Below, piece by piece: positions 4,135-56,447 of a stretch of DNA of 64,000 bases. Within the stretch, counting starts at the first letter, position 1, and every line of letters starts with the position of its first letter. The notes below the pieces were generated by a model. The model did no database searches. It had not been told where the DNA came from and saw only the letters and a program-made list of their open reading frames with translations. The position numbers and the translations under genes were made by a program. This stretch comes from Candidatus Limivivens intestinipullorum (GTDB taxonomy: Bacteria > Bacillota > Clostridia > Lachnospirales > Lachnospiraceae): contig DVIQ01000027.1 in assembly GCA_018711185.1 (NCBI GenBank), forward strand, positions 1 to 64,000, in the 5' to 3' direction.

Positions 4135-4280
4135 CGTATTTTGAAACGAGAAAACGCTGCGCGCGAAGACGCGCGGACACAGACCGGCGGTTCTGGAAAG
4201 AACAGCCTTCCAAGCGCCGTAAGAGCATCGGCAGTGACTCACTCCCTCCGCCAGTATGAATCAACTGGTGACGGTTACTC

Positions 4281-4311
4281 AAAACAGCCGCAAACATCGG
4301 CTGTTTGCGGC
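4281..4311 (-). terminator. Candidate riboswitch-linked terminator hairpin
   Basis: On the minus strand this can form GCCGCAAACA/TGTTTGCGGC (10 bp, loop of 5) or the shifted AACAGCCG/CGGCTGTT followed by TTTT. It lies about 55 nt downstream of the TPP-type aptamer, where an expression platform would be expected. The T run is short. Confidence 0.5.
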
Positions 4312-4334
4312 GTATGAATGTGATTCAGGCGTGA

Positions 4335-4373
4335 GCGGATTCCATTCGCGGAGCGAATTTTCAATGAATCCGC
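4335..4373 (-). promoter_or_regulatory. Alternative stem that competes with aptamer helix P1
   Basis: On the minus strand GCGGATTC (the 3' side of the presumed P1) can instead pair with a downstream GAATCCGC. The ATTCGC-tcc-GCGAAT hairpin sits inside. Mutually exclusive pairing of this kind is the usual switch in riboswitch leaders. A very similar stem occurs at 53198-53236, so it may derive from a repeat. Confidence 0.45.
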
Positions 4374-4460
4374 GAACCGCTGACGCAAACGTATGAGCGG
4401 CAGCGGACAGGTTCAACGGGTCAGATTTCTCACTCTCAGTCATTTGACTCCCCGGGATTC
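4366..4460 (-). promoter_or_regulatory. TPP (thi-box) riboswitch-like leader of ykoFEDC
   Basis: On the minus strand the order GAATCC-CGGGGAG, then CTGAGAGTGAG, then ACCCGTTGAACCTG matches the 5' half of the TPP aptamer (P1/P2, the CUGAGA loop and the P3/J region). Outer P1 would be GAATCC pairing with GGATTC. The 3' half is atypical: instead of the usual GCCAGCGnAGGGA there is a longer CCGCTG/CAGCGG stem-loop. The position, about 270 nt upstream of ykoF, and the operon function support the call. The aptamer may be divergent, or altered by a repeat insertion. Confidence 0.7.
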
Positions 4461-5377: not shown

Positions 5378-5512
5378 GTTACAGTTCAGCTTTGCTGAAC
5401 TGTAACTGCAAAAATCCATTTGAAATCGCCTTCGGCGATGGGATTTTCGCACTCCTGAATCACGTTCTTACGGTCTGCGCAGCATGTGCGCAGACCTGGT
5501 CTGAACTGTTAC
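5378..5512 (-). mobile_element. MITE-like element, full-length copy 1
   Basis: About 135 bp with internal hairpins GTTCAGC/GCTGAAC, AATCC..GGATT and GTCTGCGCA/TGCGCAGAC. It is in the opposite orientation to the copy at 41947. Flanks are GATTATTA (5370-5377) and GATTATTG (5513-5520), a 7/8 direct repeat consistent with target duplication. It sits between the AraC gene and the glycosidase operon. Confidence 0.8.
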
Positions 5513-8377: not shown

Positions 8378-8509
8378 GTAACCGTTCAGCCCTTCTGAAC
8401 CGTTACATGCAAAATCCATTTAAAATCGCCTGCGGCGATGGGATTTTGCACTCCTGAATCACGTTCTTACGGTCCGCGCAGCATGTGCGCAGACCTGGGC
8501 TGAACTGTT
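8378..8509 (-). mobile_element. MITE-like element, full-length copy 2
   Basis: About 132 bp, closely matching the copy at 5378. It is flanked by direct repeats of GACGGCGG (8371-8378 and 8510-8517), and the left one follows the fucosidase stop codon immediately. The outer AC of one end is lost. It lies within the glycosidase operon. Confidence 0.8.
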
Positions 8510-8530
8510 GACGGCGGGCTTATGTATACT

Positions 8531-20203: not shown

Positions 20204-20230
20204 GCAACGGTTCAGCAGGGCTGAACCGTT
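20204..20230. repeat. Short MITE-like element (fused ends), copy A
   Basis: GCAACGGTTCAGC-aggGCTGAACCGTT is a near-perfect palindrome equal to the ends of the full elements. Flanks GAACAAGG (20196-20203) and AAACAAGG (20231-20238) match at 7 of 8 bases. Confidence 0.7.
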
Positions 20231-20302
20231 AAACAAGGCGCTTTCCGCGCCGGATTTGCGCAGGAAACCCGGCAGGCGCCGGGATGCGTAAAAGGAGGAC
20301 AT

Positions 20303-23885: not shown

Positions 23886-26800
23886 ATGTATCGAAAAAAG
23901 AAAGACAGAATCTTGTCCATGATTTTGGCTTTGGCACTCTCTGCGTCTTTTTTAGGCGGATGGCAGGCGGATTCCGCCCAGGAAATCGGCGCTGTTTCGG
24001 AGAGCGAGGAGGCTTTTGAATCAGACACGCTTTTCACGGAAGAAAATCAGCCGGAGGCTTTGACGGCGGAAACAGAAGATACAGGATTGGAAGTACAGAG
24101 GAAAGAGACGGAGAATACCGAAGGTACAAAAGCTACGGGTGCGGAGACGGGCACAATGTCCGCTTCCGAAGCGGAGAACGCTGATACAGGTGAGAAAGAA
24201 ACAGACAGGGTCGCGGCGGCAGACAGAACCGCAGAAGCAGACAGGACGTCAGCCGCGGATGCCGGTGAGTCCGAAGAAAAGCAGACGGACAAGGCCGCTG
24301 TTTCTTCGGAAACCGAGGGCGCTGGCGAAACGTCAGCCGCGAATGCCGGGGGAACCGAAGAAGAGCAGACGGACAAGGCGGCTGTGTCCTCAGAAACCGA
24401 GGACATAGGCGAAACGTCAGCCGCGAACGCCGGGGGAACCGAAGAAGAGCAGGCAGACAAGGCCGCCGTTTCTTCGGAAGCCGAGGACACGGGCGAAACG
24501 TCAGCCGCGAACGCCGGGGGAACCGAAGAAGAGCAGACGGACAAGACCGTCGGTTTTTCCGAAACCGAAAACGCTGGCGAAACAACCGCTCCGGGCGGCG
24601 GCAAATCAGCGGCTACGGAGACCGGCGTGCCGGCAGAGACCGAAGAAACGATAGCAGAGGAAACGGATGCATTGGCAGGGGAAACGGGTGCCTCGACAGA
24701 AGAAACGGATGCGTCGGCAGAGCAAACAGATGCGCTGGAGTTTGATACAGGGATTTATATGGGCGGATGGATGAACGCGGACAGCGGCAGCCTGGAAGGG
24801 GCAGCCCGGCTTTTCCTGTATGAGGATGGCACGGCACTGTTCAGCGAAGACGGCAAACAGGTTGACGGAGGGGGCTGGCAGGCAATGCCGGACGGCCTGC
24901 GGCTGACGATGCAGTCCCGGATCAAAGGCGCGTACGAGATGGATGTGGTATACGAAAACGGACTTTTGATGCTGCGGGAGGGCCCTGGAAGTTTTCGGAT
25001 GTCCAGAACCGCGGACAGCAGGCTCACGGTCACCGCGGAAGGAACCGCGATTCTGCAGGGAGAGGCGTATCAGCCCGAAGATGGAAAGAACCTGGGATTT
25101 TCAGCGGATTTTTACGCGATTCGGGTGGAGGAAACCGATGTAAATCCGGAGAAAGCAGGCAAATACAAAACGATCTATTCTCTGACGGATTTCCTGACAG
25201 GCAGGAGTTTCGCCGTAGAGCAGCCGGTGACTGTCCTTGCCGTGCAGCCGGAGCAGCCGACGGAGAGCGGAGAGACAGAGCAGCCGGAGTTGCCGTTGGC
25301 GAGAGAAGAAACAGAGATGTCGGAGAGCGCGGAAACGGAAGCATCCGTATCGCTGTCAGAGAACGCGGAAACAGAGGTGACTGAACGGCCGGCAGAGGAT
25401 GCGGAGACAGCAGTGCCGGAGCAGCCGGCGGAAAAGATTCACAGGCCGGATACAGGAGAAGAAAGTTATACGAAAACGTTTCGGGTAACCACAAAGGGCG
25501 GTGTCCTGCGCGTACTCGGCAGCAGCCGGCGGCTTCTGGCAGAGCTGGCTTACGGGGATGCGGACTTTGTGCTTCATTTCCCGGAGGATGGAGAGAAAAA
25601 TGCGGAGGATATCACCGTTCAGGCGGTTGCCGAGGATGGTTATACCGTGAAAAATTATGTGATTGTGACGGAAGACAGCGGCATGTCTGTGACATCCCCG
25701 GGTTCGGTGTACGGTATCGGAGAGCAGACCTACAGCCGTGCCCATTACCTGACCCAGACACCAAAAAATGAGGTGTTCAAGGTATCCTTTGAAAAACAGG
25801 GAGTTCACTCCCTCTTCGCAGTCAGGGCAGCGCTGCCCGCCGCCAGCGGAAATATTGACAGCCCGGCAGTGGGGGATACCTTCACAGGAAGGGCGACCCT
25901 GACCTCCATCAATTCGCCGGCGGGAAAGACGTATAACGGAACAGGCGTCATTACCTGTACCAGCGGCGACTTTGAGGGGGACAGTTTTCAGATGTATGCC
26001 TGTGCCTCCGGACATACCCACGCGATTCCGCTGCGGGGACAGACGGGCTCATACACACTGACGATTACTGCCGTGGATAAGAGCGCGGGAAAGATTTCTT
26101 ATAGTATTTATTGGGCAAACGACAATGAGCCCAGCGGATATCAGGACCTTTCCAGCAGCGGAAGCTACAGCCACTCCTTTGAGGCCAGAATCAAGGCCAC
26201 GAAGGTGACAAAGGACGGCTTCGATGTGTCCGTGAGCTCAGAATATACCCTGAAAGGGGCAGAGTTTACCCTTTACCGGAACTATGATCCCGCCAGCGGA
26301 AAGCTTTCCGGAAAAATCGGAGTTATGACCACCGGTTCCTCCGGGAAAACCAGCATTTCTTCCGCCATTACCGCAGAAGCCGGAACCTACTATATAAAAG
26401 AGACAAAGGCGCCGCAGGGATTTCTGCTGAACAGCAAAGTATATACCGTAACGGCCCAGGCAGGCGTTACAAACGTCACGGAGATTCCCGATGACGAGAA
26501 ATACGGGACGATATTGATTCAGAAGGTGGACGAGGACACCGGAAAGCCGGACGCGTCCCTGAAAGGGGCGAAGTTTACCATATCCAGTGACGAAGCAGGG
26601 AAAAACGTCCTGGAAACCCTGATCATCGATGAAACCGGACAGGCAGAGTCCAAAAATCAGTATCTTTTGGGCGTTGCCTACTATGTCAAAGAGATTTTTG
26701 CCCCTGCCGGCTGGAATATTGACGAAGAGGCAAAAGAAGTGACGGCGGTGGACGACGGCACGGACGAGCCCTCGGTGACAGTAAAATTCCGGGACTCAAA

Positions 26801-29800
26801 GCAGGAGGGCGGAATCGCCGTACAGAAAGTATCCGGCAGAAACGGAAAATCGAAGCCTCTGAATGAGGAATACAGCTTTAAAGGCGCTATGTTTACCATA
26901 TACCGGGATAAGGACTGCACAGACCGGGTCGGGAGCATCACCACAGATGAAAATGGCTATGGCAAGAAGACCGGCCTTGAAGTGGGAACTTACTATGTAA
27001 AAGAGACCCGGGCGCCTTTGAGCGGAAATTATGAGATAAATGATACCGTTTATCCTGTGGAAGTGGGAGGAACCATGCTTGTCCGAGTGAAAATCCGGGA
27101 GGACGAGGTTCTGACGCATTTTACGATCCAAAAAGTAGATGAGAAAACGGGGAAGGCCGATCCAGGGCTGAAAGGAACGACCTTCGGTGTATTTTCTGAC
27201 CGGGCCTGTACAGACAAGCTGGAGACCGTGACGGTGGGAGCGGATGGAATCGGCACCACCGGGGATTATTATTATCTGGGAAAGACATATTATGTGAAAG
27301 AATTGTCTGCCCCCGCGGGCTGGCTGATGGATACCGGCGTAAAAGCCGTAAAAGCCACCGACGCCGTAAAGGTTCCCTCTCTGACCTTTGAGAATACCAA
27401 TCCCAAAGGAAAGATTCAGGTGCAGAAGACCGTTTCCGATGAAAATTATATAAAAATGTATCCCCTTACGGGAGCGGTTTATACGATTTATTCGGACGCG
27501 GAATTAAAAACTGCGGCAGGGACAATGACCACGGACGCCAAAGGACGGGCTGTTTCCGGAGAACTGCCCCTTGGAAGATACTGGGTAAAGGAGACAAAAA
27601 CGCCTGTGTCAGGCGGCTATGAACTGGACACAAAGGTCTATCCTGTACAGATTACGCTGCAGAATTATTCCGATCCCATTGCCGTCAGCTCTCAGGAACC
27701 GTCTACTACGGGAAGCATTGTGATTGAAAAGCATGACAGCGAGACAAAAACTTCTGTGCCGGCAAATGAAAAGTATTCTCTGGACGGAGCCGTTTATACG
27801 GTTTACCGGGACGCGCAGCTTTCCCAGACCGCGGGAACCATTCGAATACTGAACGGAACGGGAACCTTAGGCGGTCTGCCCTATGGAATCTATTACGTGA
27901 AAGAGACCCAGGCTCCGGCAGACTATCATCTGGATACAAGGGTTTATACCGCGAAGGTGGACAGCAAGGATCCGGTGAAAATCCTGTCAGAGGATCCGGT
28001 AAAGAAGGGACAGATTCGAATTGAAAAGAGGGATGCGGTTACAGGTACCGGTACGTCGGCAAACCAAAAGTATTCTCTGGACGGAGCGGTCTATGCGATT
28101 TACACGGACGAGGCCTGTACGAAACGTCTGCAGGAGCTGACCATAAAGAACGGAAGTGCCCAGACGGAAAAGACGCTTTTGTTTGGAGACTATTGGGTGA
28201 AGGAGACGAAAGCGCCGGATGGTTATGAGCTGGACGCGAAGATTTATAAAGTAACCATTGACAGCGAGACATGCCAGGAAATTTCCGCTGCCGCCGGAAC
28301 CCTGATTGTTTCCAGCGAACAGCCCAGGCGCGGCGCCATCGGGATTGAAAAACGGGATTCGGCCACCGGAACAGGGCAGCCCCTGAATGAGAATTACAGC
28401 CTGGACGGAGCCGTTTACGGGGTCTTTGCGGATGCGGACTGTACGGAGAAACTACGGGAACTGACCATCGAGAACGGCCGTGCCCGGACAGAGAAAGAGT
28501 TTTTGTTCGGAGACTACTGGGTGAAGGAGATAAAAGCGCCGGATGGTTATGAACTGGACGCGAAGATTTATAAAGTAACCATTGACAGCGAGACGTGTCA
28601 GGAAATTTCCGCTGCCGCCGGGACTTTGATTGTTTCCAGCGAACAGCCGAAGTACGGGGCCATCGGAATTGAAAAGCGCGACGCGCGGACGGGTACCTCC
28701 AAGCCGGTAAACGACCGGTACGTTCTGGACGGCGCTGTATATACGATTTTCGGCGATGCGGACTGCACGGAGAAACTGCAGGAGCTGACCATAAAAGACG
28801 GCCGCGCCCGGACGGAAAGGAACCTGCCCTTTGGGGAGTATTGGGTGAAGGAGACAGCCGCGCCTAAAGATTATGAGCTGGATACGGCGGTTTACCGTGT
28901 TGTCATTGACAGCGAAGCCTGCGAGAAAATTTCCGTGGAAAATGGAACCCTTGTAATCTCTGCGGAAGCCCCGAAGCGGGGAGCGGTGGGAATTGAAAAG
29001 CACGATACGGAAACCGGCACGGTAAAAGAGGCAAACGCAAACTATACGATGGACGGGGCGGTCTATACCATTTATTCGGACGAGGGCTGTACGGCGGAGG
29101 TGACACGGCTGACCATAGAGAACGGCCGTGCCCAAACCGGAAAGGAACTTCTCTTTGGAGACTACTGGATAAAGGAAACCACTCCGCCTGCTTATTATGA
29201 GGCAGATGCCGGAGTTTATAAGGTGACCATAGACAGCGAGAATTGTGAAACGGTTTCGCTGGAAAACGGAACCCTGGTTCTGTCCGCGGATACGCCGAAA
29301 CGCGCCAGGCTGGCGGTGCAGAAGCGGGACGCCGAGACGGGGGAGACATCTCCTTATACGGAGGCACTGTCTTTTGCGGGGGCTGAATTTGGCATTTACC
29401 GGGATAAGGACTGCACGGAGCTGATTCAGAGCCTGGTTACGGACGAAAGCGGATATGCCGTATCGGAGGAACTTTTGATCGATACGTATTATATCCGGGA
29501 GATCACGGCGCCCGAAGGCTATAACCGGAATCCAAAGATCTTTGCCGTTGCTCCGGAACAGATGAAGGAAGCGCTGGATAAGGACGAGGCCCAGGCGGTT
29601 GTGATCACGGATGTGGAACAGGAAATCATCCGGGCAAATGTGCTTCTGATGAAATACATTAATGATGATGACGGAAGCACCATTCAGCGGCCCCAGGACC
29701 GGGATTTGTCCGGTATCCGCTTTACTTTTACTTATGTTGAAGATGAAAGCGTCACGTTTGACGTGTGCGGAGAGAAAAATACGATTATTACGGACGAAAA

Positions 29801-32711
29801 CGGCGTTGCGGTCACGGAAGACCGGGAAAAGTATCCCAGAGGCACGCTGATTTACGGAACGTGGCGAATATCCGAGATTCCTAATTCCGGACTTCTGGAG
29901 CCCATCCGGGACTTTGAGATTCAGGTAACGGAAGAGGGCGGAATTTATCCTTACGTAGCAAACAACGACACGGTTCAGGCCAGGGTGGAGATTCAGAAAC
30001 GGGATGCGAACACCGGAGAATTGATTCCGCTTTCCGATGTCTCGTTCCGGATCCGTGACGAAAAGGGAGATCTCATTGAAATGTGGGATCCGGCGCTGGG
30101 CGCGTATACGGATGTGTTCCGAACGGATGACAAAGGAACTGTGCGGCTGCCAAATACCTTATTCTACGGGAGCTATACCCTGGAGGAGATTGCGGCGCCG
30201 GATGGATACCTGCTCTCTGAGCCTGTGTCCTTTTCCGTGGAGGAAGCGCACAGAAATCCCCTGGAACCCCTGATTGTGGAGTGCTTCGACCAGCCCCAGA
30301 CAGGGAAAATTGAAGTGACCAAGGTAGATCAGGATACGGATGAAAACGCGGGGGAAGGCTTCGCGTTTGAGATCGTCGCGGCAGAGGACATACTGGACGC
30401 GGCCGGAAATCCGCGGACCGGTGAAAATGCCCTGGGAGAGACGGTTGAACTGACAAAAGGCACGGTGGTGGATTCGATTATTACCGATAAAGAGGGACGG
30501 GCAGCCTCAAAAGAGCTGTATTTAGGCAGTTACCTGGTACGGGAAATCGCTGCGCCGGATTTTTATACGGTGAACGAAACGGAACAGACGGTTGTTCTGG
30601 CCGCGGATGCCTCTGCGGAAATCGTATGGACTAAGGTGAAAGAGGCGGATGTGAAAACCCGCATTGAGCTTACGAAAGTGGACGCCTATAATGGCATGAA
30701 AGCCCTGCCCGGCATTACGTTCCGGGTATTTCCGGAAACGCTTTTGGAAGAGATCACGGCGGGACGCCTGGACCTGCCGGCAGCAGGCCGTGAGTACACG
30801 ACAGATGCCCGGGGGCGTGTCCGGATCGAGGATCTGAACCACGATACCACTTACTGCATCGTGGAGACACATACATTGGACGGCTATAACCTGGATCCCA
30901 CGGTTTACCGGATTTATGTGGATGAGAAAGGTCTCATCGGCGGAGAAAAGACGCATGTTATGACGATTGCCAACACGCCGAATGTGGTGGAGATCACGAA
31001 GACGGATATCACCGGCGAGACGGAACTGGAAGGCGCGCGCCTGGAAATTACGGATGCTGATGGGAATATTGTGGACGAATGGATTTCAGACGGAACGCCC
31101 CATGTGATTCTGGGTATGAAAGCGGGAGATTATACGCTGACAGAGACCCAGGCCCCGGAAGGATATGCCAGGGCCGAGAGCGTTTCCTTTACGGTGACGG
31201 ATAAGCTGGAGGTGCAGTCCGTGACGATGAAGGACGAGCGGATCACGGTGGAGGTTGTAAAGCTGGACGCCGAGACCGGACAGCCGGTGTCCGGGGCAAA
31301 GCTGATGGTCAGTGACAGCAGCGGCGGCATCGTGGAGGAATGGGTTACAGACGAAACGCCGCATCGGATGTTTCTGGCAGCCGGAGACTATGTATTGTCC
31401 GAAACCCAGGCGCCGGAGGGCTATGCCGCGGCAGAACCAAAAGCGTTTACTGTAACAGACGAAAGAGGCGTGCAGACCATAGAACTGGAAGATGCGCCGC
31501 TGTCTCTGGTCATTTCCAAACAGGGAGAGGAGCCGGACGCGGAGCTTCCCGGCGCGCGGCTTCAGCTTCTGGACGCCCGGGGAGTGGAAATCGCTGCCTG
31601 GACGACTGCAGAGCAGCCCCATACCATAAAATATCTTCCGAAAGGGAGTTATACCCTGCGGGAGCTGGCCGCGCCGGAGGGCTACAGTCTGGCGGCGGAT
31701 CTTACCTTCATCCTGGAAGATACGGCAAAGCCCCAGTATGTGACGATGAAAAACACCAAAACACAGACGGAGATTACCAAAACCGATTTTGCCACCGGCG
31801 AGGAACTGCCCGGGGCAGAGCTGGTAATTACCGACACGGAAGGGAATGAGATCGAGAGATGGGTGTCCACAGAGGAGCCGCACAAAATCAGCGGGCTTCC
31901 GGTGGGAGAGTACACCCTGACGGAGACTATCGCGCCGGAAGGGTACGCCACGGCAGAGAGCGTAAAGTTCACAGTGACGGATACGGGCGAAATCCAGAAA
32001 GTGGAGATGAAGGATCAGCCCTTGGAGGTGGAAATCAGTAAGACGGACATTGCGACGGGCGAGGAATTGCCCGGAGCGGAGCTGGTGATCACCGACGCGG
32101 AAGGGAAGGAGATTGAGAGGTGGGTATCCACGGAGAAGCCGCACAAAATCAGCGGGCTTCCGGTGGGAGAGTACACCCTGACGGAGACTATCGCGCCGGA
32201 AGGGTACGCCACGGCGGAAAGCGTAAAATTCACAGTGACGGATACGCGCGAAATCCAGAAAGTAGAGATGAAGGACGAGCTTATTCAGGTAGAAGTTGCG
32301 AAGAGGGACGCCAAGACAGCGGAATTTCTGGCCGGGGCAAAGCTGGAGATCCGGGGAATCGACGGAAAGACCGTGGAGAGCTGGACTTCCCAGGAAAAGA
32401 TGTATGTTATTGAAGGACTGCCGGCGGGAGACTACACTCTGGTGGAAACGGAAGCGCCCGAGGGCTACGAAAAGGCCGCGGAGCTGGCTTTTACAGTAAA
32501 GGACACCGGAGAAATCCAGACGGTGACGCTTTACAATAAAAAGTATCCGGAAACGCACGAGACGGAGGGTCCCTCCGGCCCGGCCCCCGAAACGGGAGAT
32601 CCTTCCCAGACAGCAGTCTACGGCGCTGCGCTGCTGGCGGCGGCTTTGCTGGCAGGCATGCTGCTTTACCGGACATGGAAGATCCGCAGGGACGGAAAGG
32701 ATAAAGTATGA
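23886..32711 (+). CDS. Giant multi-SpaA/Cna-B cell-surface protein
   Basis: A 2,941-residue secreted, probably wall-anchored protein. After a signal peptide (about 1-30) comes a Glu/Thr/Ala-rich stalk (about 35-285) with four near-identical 28-residue repeats. A globular head (about 290-765) of unrecognised fold follows. About 21 SpaA/Cna-B (prealbumin-like) modules then occupy residues 770-2885. Most start with a (I/V)xK strand and carry the Y(W/Y)(V/I)KE..AP.GY stretch whose Glu usually catalyses an intramolecular Lys-Asn/Asp isopeptide bond. The end has an LPXTG-like APETGD, a hydrophobic helix and KIRRDGK. The length suggests a rigid fibre-like adhesin. No sortase gene is in the window. 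The gene has its own promoter and GGAAAGG site. Confidence 0.93.
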   Translation: MYRKKKDRILSMILALALSASFLGGWQADSAQEIGAVSESEEAFESDTLFTEENQPEALTAETEDTGLEVQRKETENTEGTKATGAETGTMSASEAENADTGEKETDRVAAADRTAEADRTSAADAGESEEKQTDKAAVSSETEGAGETSAANAGGTEEEQTDKAAVSSETEDIGETSAANAGGTEEEQADKAAVSSEAEDTGETSAANAGGTEEEQTDKTVGFSETENAGETTAPGGGKSAATETGVPAETEETIAEETDALAGETGASTEETDASAEQTDALEFDTGIYMGGWMNADSGSLEGAARLFLYEDGTALFSEDGKQVDGGGWQAMPDGLRLTMQSRIKGAYEMDVVYENGLLMLREGPGSFRMSRTADSRLTVTAEGTAILQGEAYQPEDGKNLGFSADFYAIRVEETDVNPEKAGKYKTIYSLTDFLTGRSFAVEQPVTVLAVQPEQPTESGETEQPELPLAREETEMSESAETEASVSLSENAETEVTERPAEDAETAVPEQPAEKIHRPDTGEESYTKTFRVTTKGGVLRVLGSSRRLLAELAYGDADFVLHFPEDGEKNAEDITVQAVAEDGYTVKNYVIVTEDSGMSVTSPGSVYGIGEQTYSRAHYLTQTPKNEVFKVSFEKQGVHSLFAVRAALPAASGNIDSPAVGDTFTGRATLTSINSPAGKTYNGTGVITCTSGDFEGDSFQMYACASGHTHAIPLRGQTGSYTLTITAVDKSAGKISYSIYWANDNEPSGYQDLSSSGSYSHSFEARIKATKVTKDGFDVSVSSEYTLKGAEFTLYRNYDPASGKLSGKIGVMTTGSSGKTSISSAITAEAGTYYIKETKAPQGFLLNSKVYTVTAQAGVTNVTEIPDDEKYGTILIQKVDEDTGKPDASLKGAKFTISSDEAGKNVLETLIIDETGQAESKNQYLLGVAYYVKEIFAPAGWNIDEEAKEVTAVDDGTDEPSVTVKFRDSKQEGGIAVQKVSGRNGKSKPLNEEYSFKGAMFTIYRDKDCTDRVGSITTDENGYGKKTGLEVGTYYVKETRAPLSGNYEINDTVYPVEVGGTMLVRVKIREDEVLTHFTIQKVDEKTGKADPGLKGTTFGVFSDRACTDKLETVTVGADGIGTTGDYYYLGKTYYVKELSAPAGWLMDTGVKAVKATDAVKVPSLTFENTNPKGKIQVQKTVSDENYIKMYPLTGAVYTIYSDAELKTAAGTMTTDAKGRAVSGELPLGRYWVKETKTPVSGGYELDTKVYPVQITLQNYSDPIAVSSQEPSTTGSIVIEKHDSETKTSVPANEKYSLDGAVYTVYRDAQLSQTAGTIRILNGTGTLGGLPYGIYYVKETQAPADYHLDTRVYTAKVDSKDPVKILSEDPVKKGQIRIEKRDAVTGTGTSANQKYSLDGAVYAIYTDEACTKRLQELTIKNGSAQTEKTLLFGDYWVKETKAPDGYELDAKIYKVTIDSETCQEISAAAGTLIVSSEQPRRGAIGIEKRDSATGTGQPLNENYSLDGAVYGVFADADCTEKLRELTIENGRARTEKEFLFGDYWVKEIKAPDGYELDAKIYKVTIDSETCQEISAAAGTLIVSSEQPKYGAIGIEKRDARTGTSKPVNDRYVLDGAVYTIFGDADCTEKLQELTIKDGRARTERNLPFGEYWVKETAAPKDYELDTAVYRVVIDSEACEKISVENGTLVISAEAPKRGAVGIEKHDTETGTVKEANANYTMDGAVYTIYSDEGCTAEVTRLTIENGRAQTGKELLFGDYWIKETTPPAYYEADAGVYKVTIDSENCETVSLENGTLVLSADTPKRARLAVQKRDAETGETSPYTEALSFAGAEFGIYRDKDCTELIQSLVTDESGYAVSEELLIDTYYIREITAPEGYNRNPKIFAVAPEQMKEALDKDEAQAVVITDVEQEIIRANVLLMKYINDDDGSTIQRPQDRDLSGIRFTFTYVEDESVTFDVCGEKNTIITDENGVAVTEDREKYPRGTLIYGTWRISEIPNSGLLEPIRDFEIQVTEEGGIYPYVANNDTVQARVEIQKRDANTGELIPLSDVSFRIRDEKGDLIEMWDPALGAYTDVFRTDDKGTVRLPNTLFYGSYTLEEIAAPDGYLLSEPVSFSVEEAHRNPLEPLIVECFDQPQTGKIEVTKVDQDTDENAGEGFAFEIVAAEDILDAAGNPRTGENALGETVELTKGTVVDSIITDKEGRAASKELYLGSYLVREIAAPDFYTVNETEQTVVLAADASAEIVWTKVKEADVKTRIELTKVDAYNGMKALPGITFRVFPETLLEEITAGRLDLPAAGREYTTDARGRVRIEDLNHDTTYCIVETHTLDGYNLDPTVYRIYVDEKGLIGGEKTHVMTIANTPNVVEITKTDITGETELEGARLEITDADGNIVDEWISDGTPHVILGMKAGDYTLTETQAPEGYARAESVSFTVTDKLEVQSVTMKDERITVEVVKLDAETGQPVSGAKLMVSDSSGGIVEEWVTDETPHRMFLAAGDYVLSETQAPEGYAAAEPKAFTVTDERGVQTIELEDAPLSLVISKQGEEPDAELPGARLQLLDARGVEIAAWTTAEQPHTIKYLPKGSYTLRELAAPEGYSLAADLTFILEDTAKPQYVTMKNTKTQTEITKTDFATGEELPGAELVITDTEGNEIERWVSTEEPHKISGLPVGEYTLTETIAPEGYATAESVKFTVTDTGEIQKVEMKDQPLEVEISKTDIATGEELPGAELVITDAEGKEIERWVSTEKPHKISGLPVGEYTLTETIAPEGYATAESVKFTVTDTREIQKVEMKDELIQVEVAKRDAKTAEFLAGAKLEIRGIDGKTVESWTSQEKMYVIEGLPAGDYTLVETEAPEGYEKAAELAFTVKDTGEIQTVTLYNKKYPETHETEGPSGPAPETGDPSQTAVYGAALLAAALLAGMLLYRTWKIRRDGKDKV
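24250..24590 (+). repeat. 84-bp tandem repeat in the surface-protein stalk
   Basis: Four units, each encoding a 28-residue block that opens with SAANAGGTEEEQ and contains DKAAVSSE. The units differ at few bases, so copy number could vary between strains. Confidence 0.75.
31771..32275 (+). repeat. Recent tandem duplication of a SpaA module
   Basis: Two adjacent modules of about 83 residues are nearly identical over most of their length (both contain GEELPGAELVITD, ISGLPVGEYTLTETIAPEGY and ATAESVKFTVTD). DNA identity is very high, including silent positions. Confidence 0.75.
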
Positions 32712-33159: not shown

Positions 33160-33188
33160 GTAACAGTTCAGCTTTGCTGAACCGTTAC
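33160..33188. repeat. Short MITE-like element (fused ends), copy B
   Basis: GTAACAGTTCAGC-ttt-GCTGAACCGTTAC. No clear direct repeat flanks it. It overlaps the 3' end of coaX and provides its stop codon. Confidence 0.7.
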
Positions 33189-33974: not shown

Positions 33975-34002
33975 GCAACAGTTCAGGCCGCTGAACCGTT
34001 AC
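33975..34002. repeat. Short MITE-like element (fused ends), copy C
   Basis: GCAACAGTTCAG-gc-CGCTGAACCGTTAC between coaX and the S component gene. The flanks are T-rich but not an exact duplication. Confidence 0.65.
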
Positions 34003-38697: not shown

Positions 38698-38725
38698 GTA
38701 ACAGTTCAGCCAGTTGAATTGTTAC
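38698..38725. repeat. Short MITE-like element (fused ends), copy D
   Basis: GTAACAGTTCAGC-ca-GTTGAATTGTTAC, slightly decayed. Flanks CAGCCAGC and CAGACAAC match at 6 of 8 positions. It is just upstream of the Mrp-type gene. Confidence 0.6.
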
Positions 38726-41196: not shown

Positions 41197-41941
41197 CGGG
41201 ATACCGGAAGGAATCCTGACCGGCGTCTATGACGCCTGGGCCAGCCGCCTGGGGCACAGCCAGGTCAGGCTGCAGTCCGGGGAGCCAGGAGATATGGAGC
41301 TTTTCGCGGAGTATACCAGGACGCGTCCGGATCGGGAAAAGGCGGAAAAGGTGGCCCGCACTATAAAAAGGGAGCTTGGGGCGTACGCCTGGCAGTGTAT
41401 TTTCCAGGCGGCCCTCTCAGAAGCCCCGGAACGGGCCGATAGTATCTATCGAACGGTGGTGGAAGGACTTTTGGCTTCAAACAAAAGAGAACAGATCATG
41501 GACCGGCTTCAGAACAAGGATATTCGCCGAGTTTTTGAGCTTTCCAGAAGAGTGGGAAATGAAGCACATCATTACCTGGGATTTCTGCGCTTTTCCGAGC
41601 TGGGGGGAGGGATTCTTTTTTCGAAAATCCATCCAAAGGCAAGGATTTTGTCCCTGATCGGCGATCACTTTTCCCAGCGTTTTCCGATGGAGCATTTCCT
41701 TATTTGCGATGCGGCGCATGAGGAGACCCTTCTTCACAGGGCCGGGCATCCCTGGATTCTTACTCAGGGACAGGCTTTGAATCCGGAGCGGACGGCACAG
41801 TTTTCAGAGACAGAGCAGGAGTTTCGCTGTCTGTGGCAGGGCTTCGTGGACACCATTGGCATAGAAGAACGAGCCAATTCCGGCCTTCAGCGTCAGCTTC
41901 TTCCCCTTCGCTATCGCCCGGATCTGGTGGAGAAACTGTAA
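41177..41941 (+). CDS. TIGR03915-type DNA metabolism protein (radical SAM partner)
   Basis: A 254-residue protein starting MRIFLCDGIPEGILTGVYDAW and ending PLRYRPDLVEKL. It resembles the probable DNA metabolism family (TIGR03915/DUF4130) always found beside the UDG-linked radical SAM gene. It overlaps that gene by 20 bp with GAGGAG just before its ATG, so the two should form one functional unit. The catalytic residues are not known. The TAA stop overlaps the 8-bp direct repeat of the following mobile element, which did not alter the protein. Confidence 0.85.
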   Translation: MRIFLCDGIPEGILTGVYDAWASRLGHSQVRLQSGEPGDMELFAEYTRTRPDREKAEKVARTIKRELGAYAWQCIFQAALSEAPERADSIYRTVVEGLLASNKREQIMDRLQNKDIRRVFELSRRVGNEAHHYLGFLRFSELGGGILFSKIHPKARILSLIGDHFSQRFPMEHFLICDAAHEETLLHRAGHPWILTQGQALNPERTAQFSETEQEFRCLWQGFVDTIGIEERANSGLQRQLLPLRYRPDLVEKL

Positions 41942-41946
41942 ATTTT

Positions 41947-42080
41947 GTAACAGTTCAGCCCAGGTCTGCGCACAAGCTGCGCGGACCGTAAGAACGTGAT
42001 TCAGGAGTACAAAATCCCATCGCCGCAGGCGATTTTAAATGGATTTTGCATGTAACGGTTCAGCAGGGCTGAACCGTTAC
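41947..42080 (+). mobile_element. MITE-like element, full-length copy 3 (reference copy)
   Basis: 134 bp from GTAACAGTTCAGCCC to GGGCTGAACCGTTAC with exact 8-bp flanks TAAATTTT (41939-41946 and 42081-42088). Inside are a GTC.GCGCA/TGCGC.GAC hairpin, conserved CGTAAGAACGTGATTCAGGA and an AAATCCCATCGCC/GGCGATTT..GGATTT hairpin. There is no coding frame. The remainder of 42089-42438 holds the HPr-like gene promoter and leader; nothing else recognised. Confidence 0.88.
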
Positions 42081-42271
42081 TAAATTTTCGTTGATTCATG
42101 CCATAAAAATGCAGCGTTTTGCAGAAGAAACGAAAAAACAAATGCAGTCCGGAAGATTTCCCCAAAATGGTTGCGGATAAATCGCACAGTTTTCGTGTAT
42201 AGGGTCTGAAAAAATTGTATATAATTTCTTGAGGCTGCCGCGTCTTTACAGAAGGCTTGGGAAAAAATTGA

Positions 42272-45295: not shown

Positions 45296-45429
45296 GTAAC
45301 AGTTCAGCCCAGGTCCGCGCACATACTGCGCAGACCGTAAGAACGTGATTCAGGAGTGCAAAATCCCATCGCCGCAGGCGATTTCAAATGGATTTTTGCA
45401 GTTACGGTTCAGCAGGGCTGAACGGTAAC
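45296..45429 (+). mobile_element. MITE-like element, full-length copy 4
   Basis: 134 bp, GTAACAGTTCAGCCC to GGGCTGAACGGTAAC. Flanks are AATTGCTG (45288-45295) and AATTGCTA (45430-45437), 7/8. The rest of 45278-45634 holds the purA promoter and leader, with no gene. Confidence 0.85.
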
Positions 45430-47002: not shown

Positions 47003-47031
47003 GTAACCGTTCAGCCATACTGATCCGTTAC
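47003..47031. repeat. Short MITE-like element (fused ends), copy E
   Basis: GTAACCGTTCAGC-cat-ACTGATCCGTTAC, 29 bp, with exact 8-bp flanking repeats GAGTAAAC (46995-47002 and 47032-47039). This shows that the short form itself is bounded by a target duplication. Confidence 0.8.
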
Positions 47032-49344: not shown

Positions 49345-49387
49345 GATGGCGCGGGTATGCCGGACGATGACACAAAGGAGAACAAGA

Positions 49388-52300
49388 ATGTACATAGCGG
49401 ATTTACATATTCATTCCAGGTATTCCAGGGCCACCAGCAAGGACGGCTGTCCGGAGGTCCTGGGACTTTGGACGGCGAAAAAGGGAATCCGCCTGATTGG
49501 AACCGGAGATTTTACCCATCCGGCCTGGCGGGAGGAGCTGGAGGAGAAGCTGGAACCGGCGGAGAACGGCTTCTACTGTCTGAAGGAGAAGCTTTCCCGG
49601 ACAGGCTCGGCTTCCTGGCAGAGAATGGAGCCCAGGTTCGTGGTGTCCGGCGAAATCAGTTCCATCTATAAGAAGGACGGGAAGGTAAGGAAGGTCCACA
49701 ACCTGATTCTCCTTCCAAGCCTGCGGGACGCGAAGCTTCTCTCAGGCCGTCTGGAGGAGATTGGAAATCTGCGCTCGGACGGGAGGCCGATTCTGGGACT
49801 GGACTGCCGTGACCTTCTGGAGATTACCATGGAGGTATGCCCCAAGGCTGTTTTTATCCCTGCCCATATCTGGACGCCGCATTTTTCCATGCTGGGCGCT
49901 CTTTCTGGCTTTGATTCTCCGGAGGAATGTTTTGGGGATATGGCAGGATATATTCACGCGGTGGAGACAGGGCTTTCCTCGGATCCGCCCATGAACTGGC
50001 GGCTCTCGATGCTGGATAAGTACCAGCTTGTCTCCAATTCGGATGCCCACTCTCCCGCGAAGCTTGGACGGGAAGCGAATCTTTTGACGGGCGAGTTCTC
50101 TTATGAGGGCCTGTACCGGGCAGTGCAGACAGGAGAGGGCCTGGAAGGAACCATTGAGTTTTTTCCGGAGGAGGGAAAGTACCATTTCGACGGCCATCGA
50201 AAATGCGGAATCTGTCTCAGCCCTCTGGAGGCGGAGGCCAGACAGGGAATTTGCCCTGTCTGCCAAAGACGGCTGACCATGGGGGTTTCCCACCGGGTAG
50301 AGCAGCTTGCGGACCGGAAGGAGGGATTTCTGCCGGCGCGGGCCAAACCCTACGAGAGCCTGGTGCCTTTGCCTGAGGTTCTGGCAGCTTCCATGGGTCT
50401 TGGCACGGGAAGCCGCCGGGTGGAGCAGCTATACGAGGAGATGCTTGCTGGCCTGGGTTCGGAGTTCGAAATCCTTCGGGAGGTTCCTGTGGAGGAGATT
50501 CAGAGAAAAGCAGGGTACCTTGCCGCGGAGGGAATCCGGAGGCTTCGGAACCGTCAGGTAAAGCGGATTCCCGGCTTTGACGGGGAATATGGGCGCATCC
50601 GTCTGTTTACCAGCGATGAGATCCGGAACACGGAAGGGCAGCTCAGCCTTTTCGATGGCTGGATGGAGCAGGCTGCCCCGGATCGAGAAACAGCCGCCGC
50701 GTCGGAGGCTGAAAGGGCGCCGCAGCCAGGAAGCATTCCGCGGCGAAAAGGAGCCGTATCCGGAAGTGTCTCGCATCCGGAAAGCGGCTCCGGAGCGGTT
50801 GGAGCAGAAGATGCTTCCGGTACGACGGAAGCCAAGTCAAAGGGAGGCGTAGCGGGCAGCGAGGCATCGGAGCCCGTGCCCTCAAAGCCCGCATGGAATG
50901 CGGCGCAGCTTCAGGCGGCCCGGACCCCCGGAAGAGTCATCGCGGTGCAGGCGGGTCCGGGAACCGGAAAAACCGCTTCACTGATCGCCAGAGTACATTG
51001 GCTTCTGGAGGGACGAAGGATCAGCCCCGCAAGTGTTACCGTTGTGACGTTTACCCGAAAGGCCGCGGCGGAAGTACGGGAACGGCTGGAGCGGGAGCTG
51101 GGAAAACGGAGAGGCCGCGGCCTGACTGCGGGAACCTTCCACTCCATCTGTCTGGAACTTCTGGAAAAGACCGGCAGAAAACCGGCCCTGGCAGACGACG
51201 GCGTGATGCGGGAGACGGCCAGGGAGGCTGTAAAGACCGCCGGATTGTCCATGAGCGCCGGAGACTTCCTTTTAAGGCTGACTCGGTATAAGGCCAAAGG
51301 TTCCGAGGACGCTTTGGAAGGGAACTTTCGGAAGGCAGCGGATTTCTATCAAAAGAGGCTGGAGGAAAGAGGCTTTTGGGACTATGACGATCTGATTCTT
51401 GAGACCAGCCGTCTGATTGAGTCCGGGGAAATATCAGAAGAATTGCTTGCGCCCTTTACCTACCTGCTGGTGGACGAGTTTCAGGACATAAATCCAGCCC
51501 AGTACCGTCTGATCCGTAACTGGAACCGGGGTGGGAGAGAGCTTTTTGTCATCGGAGACCCGGACCAGGCGATTTACAGTTTCCGGGGAGCGGACGCAGA
51601 CTGCTTTGGCCGTCTGTCCAGGGAATGGCCGGATCTTACGGTCATCCGCCTGACGGAAAATTACCGGTGCATGCCAAAGATTTTAAAGGGCGCCGGGGCG
51701 GTGATCGAGAAAAATCCCGGAGGCAGCCGGACGCTGCGGGCGAATCGGCAGGGCGAGTCTCCCATAAGGCTGGTTCTGTCCACGGGAGAAACAGCCGCGG
51801 CGATGTATGCCGCAAAGGAAATCAGCCGGCAGGTGGGCGGCCTGGATATGCTGGCATCCCACGAAAAAGGAAATCGTCTGGAAGATCGCGAAGCCAGAAG
51901 TTTCGGCGATCTGGCGGTTCTATACCGGACACGCCGCCAAGGGGAGCTTTTGGAAAAAGTGTTTGCTCAGGAGGGGATTCCCTGCGTTGTGGCGGGGAGA
52001 GAGGATTATCTGGATATGCCCTCGGTCAGAGGCGCTGTCAGCTTTTTTAACCGCGCGCTGGGAAAAGCGGAAGTGCCCTACGGCGTACTGGCAAGGCAGC
52101 TTTTGGAAAAAGACGGCGATTCGCCCATGGCGGCTATGATTTTTGACCAGAAGCTGGAAAAATACGGGGCGATGGCGGCTCGTACCAGGCCCGCGAAGGT
52201 TTTGGAGGCCTGGGCGGCGGAGTTTGGACTGGATAAAGACGAGGGAATCCGCAAGCTGGAAAACATGGCGCTTCTCCATGACCGGATGCAGGAGCTTTTG

Positions 52301-52687
52301 GATACCATTGTCCTGGGCGCGGAAGGAGATCTCAGGCGCGCCGGCACGAAAACATACCGGGCGGACGCGGTGACCCTCACCACGCTTCACGGTTCCAAGG
52401 GACTGGAATTTCCCGCGGTAATTCTCTTTGGAGCGGATAAGGGCATGATTCCCCTGGAATCTCAGAAGGAGCCTGCTTCGGCGGAGGAAGAGAGGAGGCT
52501 TTTCTATGTGGGCATGACAAGGGCCAGGGATGAGCTGATCCTGCTTTGCGCCGGTGAACCTTCTCCATTTATCGGAGACATTCCCGGGGAAACGCTGAGC
52601 CGGGAAGCTGCCCAGCGGACACCGGCACAATTTCACCAGATGGAGCTGTTCGATTTTCTGTTACAGTTCAGCCCTGCCGAACCGTAA
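49388..52687 (+). CDS. Endonuclease Q-like PHP nuclease fused to a UvrD-type helicase
   Basis: A 1,099-residue fusion. Residues 1-400 resemble endonuclease Q: PHP metal motifs MYIADLHIHSRYSRAT and GTGDFTHP, HIWTPHFS, SNSDAHSP, and a zinc finger CGIC..CPVC near 275-290. EndoQ cuts 5' of deaminated bases (uracil, hypoxanthine, xanthine). A low-complexity linker (about 425-505) leads to a superfamily 1 helicase with GPGTGKTAS (near 523), VDEFQD (near 697), TLHGSKGLEFP and FYVGMTRARDEL. Together they suggest excision repair of deaminated DNA. The ATG follows AAAGGAG. The last nine codons come from a mobile repeat (52660 on); without it the frame would end ...DFLQ at TGA 52806-52808. Confidence 0.87.
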   Translation: MYIADLHIHSRYSRATSKDGCPEVLGLWTAKKGIRLIGTGDFTHPAWREELEEKLEPAENGFYCLKEKLSRTGSASWQRMEPRFVVSGEISSIYKKDGKVRKVHNLILLPSLRDAKLLSGRLEEIGNLRSDGRPILGLDCRDLLEITMEVCPKAVFIPAHIWTPHFSMLGALSGFDSPEECFGDMAGYIHAVETGLSSDPPMNWRLSMLDKYQLVSNSDAHSPAKLGREANLLTGEFSYEGLYRAVQTGEGLEGTIEFFPEEGKYHFDGHRKCGICLSPLEAEARQGICPVCQRRLTMGVSHRVEQLADRKEGFLPARAKPYESLVPLPEVLAASMGLGTGSRRVEQLYEEMLAGLGSEFEILREVPVEEIQRKAGYLAAEGIRRLRNRQVKRIPGFDGEYGRIRLFTSDEIRNTEGQLSLFDGWMEQAAPDRETAAASEAERAPQPGSIPRRKGAVSGSVSHPESGSGAVGAEDASGTTEAKSKGGVAGSEASEPVPSKPAWNAAQLQAARTPGRVIAVQAGPGTGKTASLIARVHWLLEGRRISPASVTVVTFTRKAAAEVRERLERELGKRRGRGLTAGTFHSICLELLEKTGRKPALADDGVMRETAREAVKTAGLSMSAGDFLLRLTRYKAKGSEDALEGNFRKAADFYQKRLEERGFWDYDDLILETSRLIESGEISEELLAPFTYLLVDEFQDINPAQYRLIRNWNRGGRELFVIGDPDQAIYSFRGADADCFGRLSREWPDLTVIRLTENYRCMPKILKGAGAVIEKNPGGSRTLRANRQGESPIRLVLSTGETAAAMYAAKEISRQVGGLDMLASHEKGNRLEDREARSFGDLAVLYRTRRQGELLEKVFAQEGIPCVVAGREDYLDMPSVRGAVSFFNRALGKAEVPYGVLARQLLEKDGDSPMAAMIFDQKLEKYGAMAARTRPAKVLEAWAAEFGLDKDEGIRKLENMALLHDRMQELLDTIVLGAEGDLRRAGTKTYRADAVTLTTLHGSKGLEFPAVILFGADKGMIPLESQKEPASAEEERRLFYVGMTRARDELILLCAGEPSPFIGDIPGETLSREAAQRTPAQFHQMELFDFLLQFSPAEP

Positions 52688-52794
52688 CTGCAAAAATCCA
52701 TTTGAAATCGCCTTCGGCGATGGGATTTTCGCACTCCTGAATCATGTTCTTACGGTCTGCGCAGCATGTGCGCAGACCTGGGCTGAACTGTTAC
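52660..52794 (-). mobile_element. MITE-like element, full-length copy 5, inside the helicase gene end
   Basis: 135 bp, GTTACAGTTCAGCC to GGGCTGAACTGTTAC. Exact 8-bp flanks GATTTTCT (52652-52659 and 52795-52802). It is inserted in the last codons of the upstream gene and supplies its new stop codon. Confidence 0.88.
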
Positions 52795-56312: not shown

Positions 56313-56447
56313 GCAACCGTTCAGCCCAGGTCTGCGCACATGCTGCGCAGATCGTAAGAACGTGATTCAGGAGTGCGAAAGTCCCATCGCCGAAGGCGAT
56401 TTCAAATGGATTTTCGCAGTTACGGTTCAGCAAGGCTGAATCGTAAC
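56313..56447 (+). mobile_element. MITE-like element, full-length copy 6
   Basis: 135 bp, starting GCAACCGTTCAGCCC and ending GGCTGAATCGTAAC, with exact 8-bp flanks AAAAAGTG (56305-56312 and 56448-56455). Confidence 0.87.

Follow-up and report, generated by a model that had tools for sequence, protein, structure and literature searches.

An initial annotation of a 64,000-nucleotide stretch of Candidatus Limivivens intestinipullorum (Lachnospiraceae; contig DVIQ01000027.1, positions 1 to 64,000; hereafter the window) proposed six full copies of a non-coding mobile repeat of about 135 bp, flanked by 8-bp direct repeats. We found all six at the proposed starts (Table 1). The flanking repeats were exact at three copies, agreed at seven of eight bases at two, and were 7 bp long at one. 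The copies were also said to resemble miniature inverted-repeat transposable elements (MITEs), and in form they do: they are short and non-coding, contain no transposase gene, and have terminal inverted repeats and 8-bp duplications. One degenerate copy, several remnants and five solitary hairpins built of the two ends only were found in addition. Here we describe the spread of this repeat, the fold of its interior and a putative mover, an insertion sequence of the IS66 family.

Table 1. Copies of the repeat, parts of the reference copy and solitary hairpins in the window (TSD, target site duplication; ORF, open reading frame)
Feature	Position	Strand	Remarks
Reference copy, ~134-bp element	41947..42080	+	covariance model 128.7 bits
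Left 8-bp target duplication TAAATTTT	41939..41946	.	exact
5' terminal repeat A, GTAACAGTTCAGCC	41947..41960	+	identical at both ends in five autonomous elements out of eight
Hairpin 1 (GGTC..GACC)	41963..41987	+	covaries across genera
Linker with conserved unpaired segment AAGAACGTGATTCAGGAGT	41988..42010	+	
Hairpin 2 with nested inner stem (AAAATCC..ATCGCC..GGCGAT..GGATTTT)	42011..42047	+	
3' terminal hairpin A'-B	42052..42080	+	second direct end repeat and inverted right end
Right 8-bp target duplication TAAATTTT	42081..42088	.	exact
Full copy	45296..45429	+	TSD AATTGCTG/AATTGCTA, 7/8 match
Full copy	56313..56447	+	TSD AAAAAGTG, exact 8 bp
Full copy	52660..52794	-	TSD GATTTTCT, exact 8 bp; across 3' end of UvrD-helicase ORF 49346-52687
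Full copy	8378..8511	-	7-bp duplication GACGGCG; right end altered
Full copy	5378..5512	-	TSD GATTATTA/GATTATTG, 7/8 match (final base G)
Degenerate copy, not in initial annotation	4274..4404	+	covariance model 69 bits
Element remnants, not in initial annotation	17524, 34856, 62187		
Solitary 29-bp hairpin	47003..47031	.	exact TSD GAGTAAAC
Solitary 28-bp hairpin	38698..38725	.	flanks CAGCCAGC/CAGACAAC, 2 mismatches
Solitary hairpin	20204..20232	.	shifted 7-bp repeat AACAAGG at edges
Solitary 29-bp hairpin	33160..33188	.	no duplication visible
Solitary 28-bp hairpin	33975..34002	.	no clear duplication

The source genome is a 3.77-Mb draft in 118 contigs (94.7% complete). The 13-mer GTAACNGTTCAGC, a motif of the element end, occurs 308 times in it and the reversed pattern 0 times, so its abundance is not due to chance. 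A covariance model of the element gave at least 112 matches in the whole genome. Model matches and end pairs were counted in a sample of 842.8 kb (the window and 40 further stretches), which held 81 matches at E<=1e-3, 41 of them exceeding 100 bits. In the same sample 37 pairs of ends lay 125-142 bp apart, and 25 of these were flanked by 8-mers with zero (16 pairs), one (5) or two (4) mismatches. When flanks were re-paired as a control, the corresponding numbers were 0.5, 0.3 and 0.8 (about 1.6 in total). Copies outside the window thus have duplications as well. Among 33 duplications examined we noticed a weak GA....TC pattern and an AT content of 61.7%, against 52.9% in the flanks, which is a difference of composition only; the T-rich duplications made us suspect targeting of terminators.

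Placement was assessed for 49 of the 81 model matches (those of at least 63.7 bits, minus three such matches in the short stretch L144). Forty-seven were not nested within a predicted ORF, 16 of which overlapped an ORF end, and a crude ORF caller put the coding share of the surrounding DNA at about 88%. Copy orientation (23 same, 14 opposite; p 0.19) showed no significant bias.

Distribution and covarying fold

A BLAST-type search found the element in at least 47 of 397 family genomes and 40 of 334 genera. This count is a lower bound, since the search scored at most two candidates per genome and missed the congener G002, which has 93 covariance-model matches. In a class-wide sample searched with stricter filters, five of 341 genomes matched, all five from the same family; genomes reached through named loci carry no family label, and a few carriers outside the family are possible. 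An exact-hairpin search had indicated that congeners lack the element; we rejected this, as the covariance model finds 93 matches in G002 and 4 in G001. At least 112 matches each were found in G277 and G380, and several matches in G277 had identical scores, which together suggest recent bursts. No plasmid matched the element. Three unannotated gut-phage records (MT837311.1, MT836459.1 and MT839789.1) contain 67-78% of it, and gut phages are a possible vehicle between genera. Searches of the open-licence PMC library, a scope that largely excludes subscription journals, brought up no paper recognised as describing the element.

The initial annotation held that conservation at orthologous sites across genera would speak against mobility. 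Copies in other genera have duplications of their own instead: among 31 loci, 9 were exact and 8 had one mismatch, where the score used to select the ends takes the duplication into account and so favours good ones. A further one-mismatch duplication was seen at L207, where the ends are ambiguous, and the L203 duplication, although cut one base short, was exact by eye. The comparison of filled and empty sites, proposed in the same annotation, succeeded in part. Clean empty sites were not obtained, because the intergenic DNA of G001 and G002 is too diverged to align to the base. However, 41947 was the one 134-bp site that could be compared in these congeners, and the element was absent from both. 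The solitary hairpin at 38698 was likewise missing from both and that at 47003 from G002, and the covariance model gave no match in 16 orthologous stretches of G001 and G002. The flanks of the copy at 45296 lie about 7.4 kb apart in G002. Among 33 elements tested for empty sites, one 29-bp hairpin had a near-empty paralogous site (L134:6908 against L140 near 18.8 kb); the remaining spanning matches were the same loci or other loci of the same place.

The element opens with an end repeat (A), which is followed by hairpin 1. An unpaired linker leads on to hairpin 2, which encloses a nested stem, and a terminal hairpin closes the element. In this last hairpin the end repeat recurs in direct orientation (A') and is joined by the right end in inverted form (B), so that each element holds three end-repeat copies. 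The claimed hairpins and conserved unpaired stretch proved to be real in alignments across genera. We aligned 24 elements by sequence only; the window supplied two of them, and the other 22 came from as many genomes, in 20 other genera. In this alignment 96.1% of paired cells were standard pairs, against at most 37.4% in slid controls, and two-sided changes occurred at 17 of 27 pairs, the structure being derived from this same alignment. In a model-fitted alignment of 58 distinct matches from other genomes, which include most of the model's own sequences and lean towards the structure, all 27 pairs had two-sided changes. The cells with such changes numbered 281, whereas shuffles gave 56.9 and slid controls no more than 55. 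The four helices are retained through compensatory changes across many genera. At L203, L205 and L216 all three of A, A' and B follow another end flavour, in which GTTAC.. is combined with a right-hand ..GTAA(A)C; in the window copies the three do not always agree.

Searched at the Rfam gathering score, the window gave only a tRNA match and left the repeat without a family, and six loci searched at E<=1 gave a single sub-threshold match. In hairpin 1 of L194, L199 and L208 we observed apparent tandem G-A/A-G mismatches in mid-stem (GGTCGAAGCA..TGCTGAGACC in L194); such mismatches are typical of structured RNA.

An ISBst12-type IS66 element as candidate mover

An IS66 transposase encoded elsewhere had been proposed as the mover. 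The family assignment held, for a single-ORF element of the ISBst12 type with matching ends and an 8-bp duplication; the classical IS66 genes did not. We scanned 11 of 25 returned IS66 loci, with flanks of about 1.5 kb, some ending at contig ends, and nine had no end at fewer than two mismatches within these flanks, which led us to reject classical IS66. The remaining two (L062 and L066) were the matching element itself. One classical IS66 element (L056) had different ends (GTAAGTAGG...) and an exact 8-bp duplication.

Traces of the matching element were found in several genomes. G368 has a weak IS66-domain match with the exact end GTAACAGTTCAGC 3' of its stop, and C-terminal transposase fragments of 74-80% identity in G303 and G316 are followed by the same end at the same distance. 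The source genome holds a decayed copy (G000:C105), consisting of two fragments of 61% and 73% identity with stop codons. The outer edge of its end GTAACAGTTCAGC lies 47 bp from the gene, as in L066, L076 and L078. On the same contig a 399-aa ORF (L093:278-1477) enters the end of the decayed insertion sequence, which supplies its last residues.

A scan of species-representative genomes for the transposase returned 46 loci, of which 35 were examined (L176, L178, L179 and L181-L188 were excluded as distant or cut). End pairs were found at 23 of the 35, and 14 of these had an exact 8-bp target duplication, the pair with the fewest duplication mismatches being chosen where a locus offered several candidate ends. 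These 14 elements span 1812-1829 bp each and belong to five genomes (six from Sporofaciens musculi, five from Lachnospiraceae bacterium 3-2 and one from each of three others); overall, the autonomous element measures about 1.81-1.84 kb. L147, an element of Sporofaciens musculi and the only one examined for genes, has an intact 555-aa ORF (L147:7407-9074) and otherwise ORFs of at most 84 aa; that the element has a single ORF and no tnpA-tnpB was judged from these ORFs, no TnpA/TnpB profile search having been made. The ORF matched Pfam DDE_Tnp_IS66 (PF03050) with 68.9 bits against a cut-off of 23.1.

The ends of the two kinds of element agree closely. The first 14 nt of the short element are identical to both ends of five of eight insertion sequences compared (L147, L150, L154, L155 and L156); L162 and L171 share 15 identical nt at one end and fewer at the other, and L170 is 93% identical. 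The target duplication is 8 bp long in both. Past the ends, a comparison of four short elements with the eight insertion sequences gave as best match 51 bp at 74.5% identity (E=0.001), between the 3' end of the copy at 41947 and the left end of the Roseburia inulinivorans element (L162). Descent by internal deletion (MITE type I) was rejected, as the interior is unrelated to the eight insertion sequences compared. The interior is independent cargo and not a deletion remnant of these insertion sequences. Among 15 genomes chosen for a whole or partial transposase (15 loci served as handles, out of the organisms behind the 46), 11 also have the short element, with 1 to 72 matches. G368 combines its transposase relative with 86 short-element matches.

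We propose that the repeats are a non-autonomous DNA transposon family of the Lachnospiraceae, and that an IS66-family DDE transposase (ISBst12 type, one ORF) would recognise the end GTAACNGTTCAGC(C) and insert the element, for the most part into intergenic DNA, while duplicating 8 bp of the target. Mobilisation in trans, the step that we infer, is likely (probability roughly 0.85), because the ends and the 8-bp duplication are shared, autonomous copies occur in relatives and a decayed copy lies in the same genome.

Several observations weigh against this proposal. With the NCBIfam IS66 equivalog the L147 ORF scored 136.6 bits, under the cut-off of 180; by this score the mover is a divergent IS66 member. 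In the draft source genome the remnant was found and no intact transposase copy. Four of the 15 transposase genomes (G732, G736, G739 and G741) lack the short element, as does G316. Conversely, six of 13 hairpin-carrying genomes had no IS66-domain match at E<=1e-3 (G076, G095, G226, G343, G347 and G367; four of them 59-88% complete, two 96-98%), and neither of the two copy-rich genomes G277 and G380 belongs to the 31 in which a transposase relative was found (E<=1e-3). Other or diverged movers must act in these IS66-negative genomes and in G277 and G380. Distant IS66 relatives at L077, L088 and L090 have the ends GTTACTGTTCAC/GTTACTGTTCAG, GTTACAGTTCAC and GTTACCATTCAC, respectively, with exact 8-bp duplications, and the L077 end resembles the GTTACTGTTCACAC end of the G380 short elements.

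Solitary hairpins of 28-29 bp

The 842.8-kb sample contained 42 hairpins of 28-29 bp without the element core nearby, an overcount, because three overlap model matches and several adjoin remains of hairpin 2. Duplications were exact at seven, had one mismatch at four and two at three, compared with 0.2, 0.2 and 0.6 after re-pairing; the seven with exact duplications are all clear of model matches. The 38 hairpins with a core nearby served as an internal control and had no exact and one one-mismatch duplication, as their duplication would flank the whole element. In other genomes, 18 solitary hairpins had five exact and two one-mismatch duplications, and 13 further loci (three being places already counted) had four and three. 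Combined, this gives eight exact and four one-mismatch duplications at 28 distinct places, a count without a shuffled control. One hairpin (L043) adjoins a 134-bp remnant. A hairpin-2 fragment (34.6 bits) lies near another (L258), while the other 19 of the 20 loci tested with the model scored at most 17.1 bits.

Whether these hairpins are footprints of the 134-bp element is, in our estimate, an even call. Slippage between A and A', or across the inverted ends, would delete the interior and leave the ends with the duplication, much as in the nearly precise excision of Tn10. The direct end copies lie 105 bp apart within the 134-bp element, the loop spectra of solitary and 3' hairpins overlap, with AGG the commonest in both, and a spacing of just three bases between the end repeats would seem to leave too little room for an ordinary paired-end complex. 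However, exact duplications flank solitary hairpins in G173 and G076, two genomes with 0 matches to the 134-bp model. In G173 two hairpins at different sites share private substitutions, each with its own exact duplication (GCAAATAG and GTTTTTGA), which favours mobilisation of the hairpin. The solitary loops of G343 and G226 are also unlike the 3' hairpin of the one full element viewed in each. Somewhat less probably, the 29-bp palindrome would itself be the transposing unit with its 8-bp duplication, and the 134-bp element would be this palindrome plus a selected, structured cargo, with the transposase flavour shifting between genera. At so small a size, well under what a paired-end DDE complex would seem to require, the palindrome would need to act in pairs or in the form of a hairpin or cruciform. 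G173 contains classical IS66 genes, though it falls outside the 31 genomes in which a transposase relative was found. Pairs of ends 42, 50, 51, 58 and 75 bp apart, with near-duplications (one or two mismatches), were seen in tiles L105, L106, L108 and L123 of the source genome and are possibly partial deletion products.

Alternative readings and known systems

Transposition alone does not explain why the fold is retained, since both the insertion sequences and the 29-bp hairpins lack the interior. Most likely, an RNA role would make read-through insertions tolerable, as has been proposed for the ERIC, BOX and NEMIS repeats. Folding as a structured, mostly orientation-neutral RNA would make insertions tolerable in untranslated regions, and lineages with the fold would then persist. 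Against this reading, orientation shows no significant bias (23 to 14); the ratios of G-U to A-C cells give a mixed picture. A tentative alternative, which we favour less, is that the fold is kept by DNA-level effects: hairpins or cruciforms could aid transposition, or template switching in quasi-palindromes could correct imperfect stems to perfect ones and so mimic compensatory change. Aligned with MAFFT, the diverse set gave 18 G-U and 15 A-C cells in hairpin 1, 13 and 10 in hairpin 2, and 7 and 2 in hairpin 3, without a clear asymmetry, so that nothing ties these stems to one transcribed strand; the occurrence of elements in both orientations also agrees with an effect on DNA. On the other side, G-U exceeds A-C in the 3' hairpin (MAFFT; 37 to 9 in the diverse set and 38 to 6 in copies of the source genome) and in hairpin 1 of the source genome's copies (MAFFT; 26 to 3, at few pair positions, 4 versus 3), both excesses being shared by many copies, and also in the model-fitted alignments (35 to 13 and 61 to 12), where the fitting itself favours G-U. 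Conservation extends to the linker segment and to helix order, which template switching alone does not account for, and autonomous elements and 29-bp hairpins have 8-bp duplications without any interior.

Two further explanations concern mobility itself, and we consider both very improbable. High copy number, intergenic placement and hairpins would suit palindromes spread, as in REP/RAYT systems, by a Y1 transposase of the IS200/IS605 type. Yet the 8-bp duplications far exceed the shuffled control and the ends match those of a DDE element, whereas REP systems are not known to leave target duplications; Y1 transposases were not searched for. The strong covariation would likewise fit vertically inherited, conserved non-coding RNA genes or riboswitch-like leaders that are not mobile. 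This is hard to reconcile with the 8-bp duplications around copies, the absence of model matches from the orthologous stretches of the congeners, at least 112 matches in each of three genomes, and the lack of a matching Rfam family.

ISBst12 is itself the namesake of a subgroup of IS66, and the candidate mover resembles a member of this group, ISDge4 of Deinococcus geothermalis. ISDge4 (PMC12898284) has the ends GTGACTACTCAGCA/GTAACTGCTCAGCA, one ORF and an 8-bp repeat, and its transposition was observed; the end GTAACTG.TCAGCA, the 8-bp direct repeat and the single transposase ORF are common to both. In contrast to ISDge4, the mover here is a 1.81-1.84-kb Lachnospiraceae subgroup, with the repeat as its gene-less short partner. 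Bacterial MITEs, as characterised in a review (PMC10969869), are under 500 bp and non-coding, with terminal inverted repeats, duplications, a related insertion sequence and stem-loops, all features of this repeat; the terms 'IS66', 'Clostridi' and 'Lachnospir' are not mentioned in the main text of that review. Unlike usual MITEs, the repeat has an interior that is unrelated to the insertion sequences compared and yet covaries across genera, three end-repeat copies, and 29-bp relatives made of the ends only. ERIC, BOX, RUP and NEMIS are folded intergenic repeats of about 100-150 bp, some with a known mover (RUP with IS630-Spn1). Our repeat shares their size, folding and intergenic placement and, like some of them, has a mover to name, here a candidate, but it has 8-bp and not TA duplications, an IS66-type partner and another taxon as host. 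REP/BIME sequences, with their RAYT transposase (PMC2817692), also form many short palindromes per genome. In contrast to them, the repeat described here duplicates 8 bp of its target and is partnered by a DDE element.

As a kind, MITEs partnered by an insertion sequence are already known. What is new here is that the interior is conserved and covaries, that the end repeat occurs three times per element and that 29-bp relatives exist. The interior keeps one hairpin fold across many related genera, which simple deletion remnants of transposons would not be expected to do. Neither the covarying fold, nor the spread over dozens of genera, nor the 29-bp hairpins had been anticipated by the initial annotation. 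Lachnospiraceae are abundant in the gut, and with dozens of genera carrying the repeat, some genomes at 100 copies or more, it shapes intergenic regions and may break assemblies. With a likely mover at hand, what was an anonymous repeat becomes part of a two-part system open to test, and the 29-bp hairpins offer a testable lower limit on what a DDE transposase can move. Through its covarying interior the repeat is well suited to the question, long asked about ERIC and BOX, of why some MITE-like repeats retain a fold resembling that of RNA.

Two ORFs of the window were also noted. The UvrD-helicase ORF has its stop 28 nt inside the copy at 52660, so its last codons and stop are supplied by the element. 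A 2941-aa ORF at 23886-32711 (+ strand), with 20 SpaA prealbumin-like domain stretches, probably encodes a giant surface protein.
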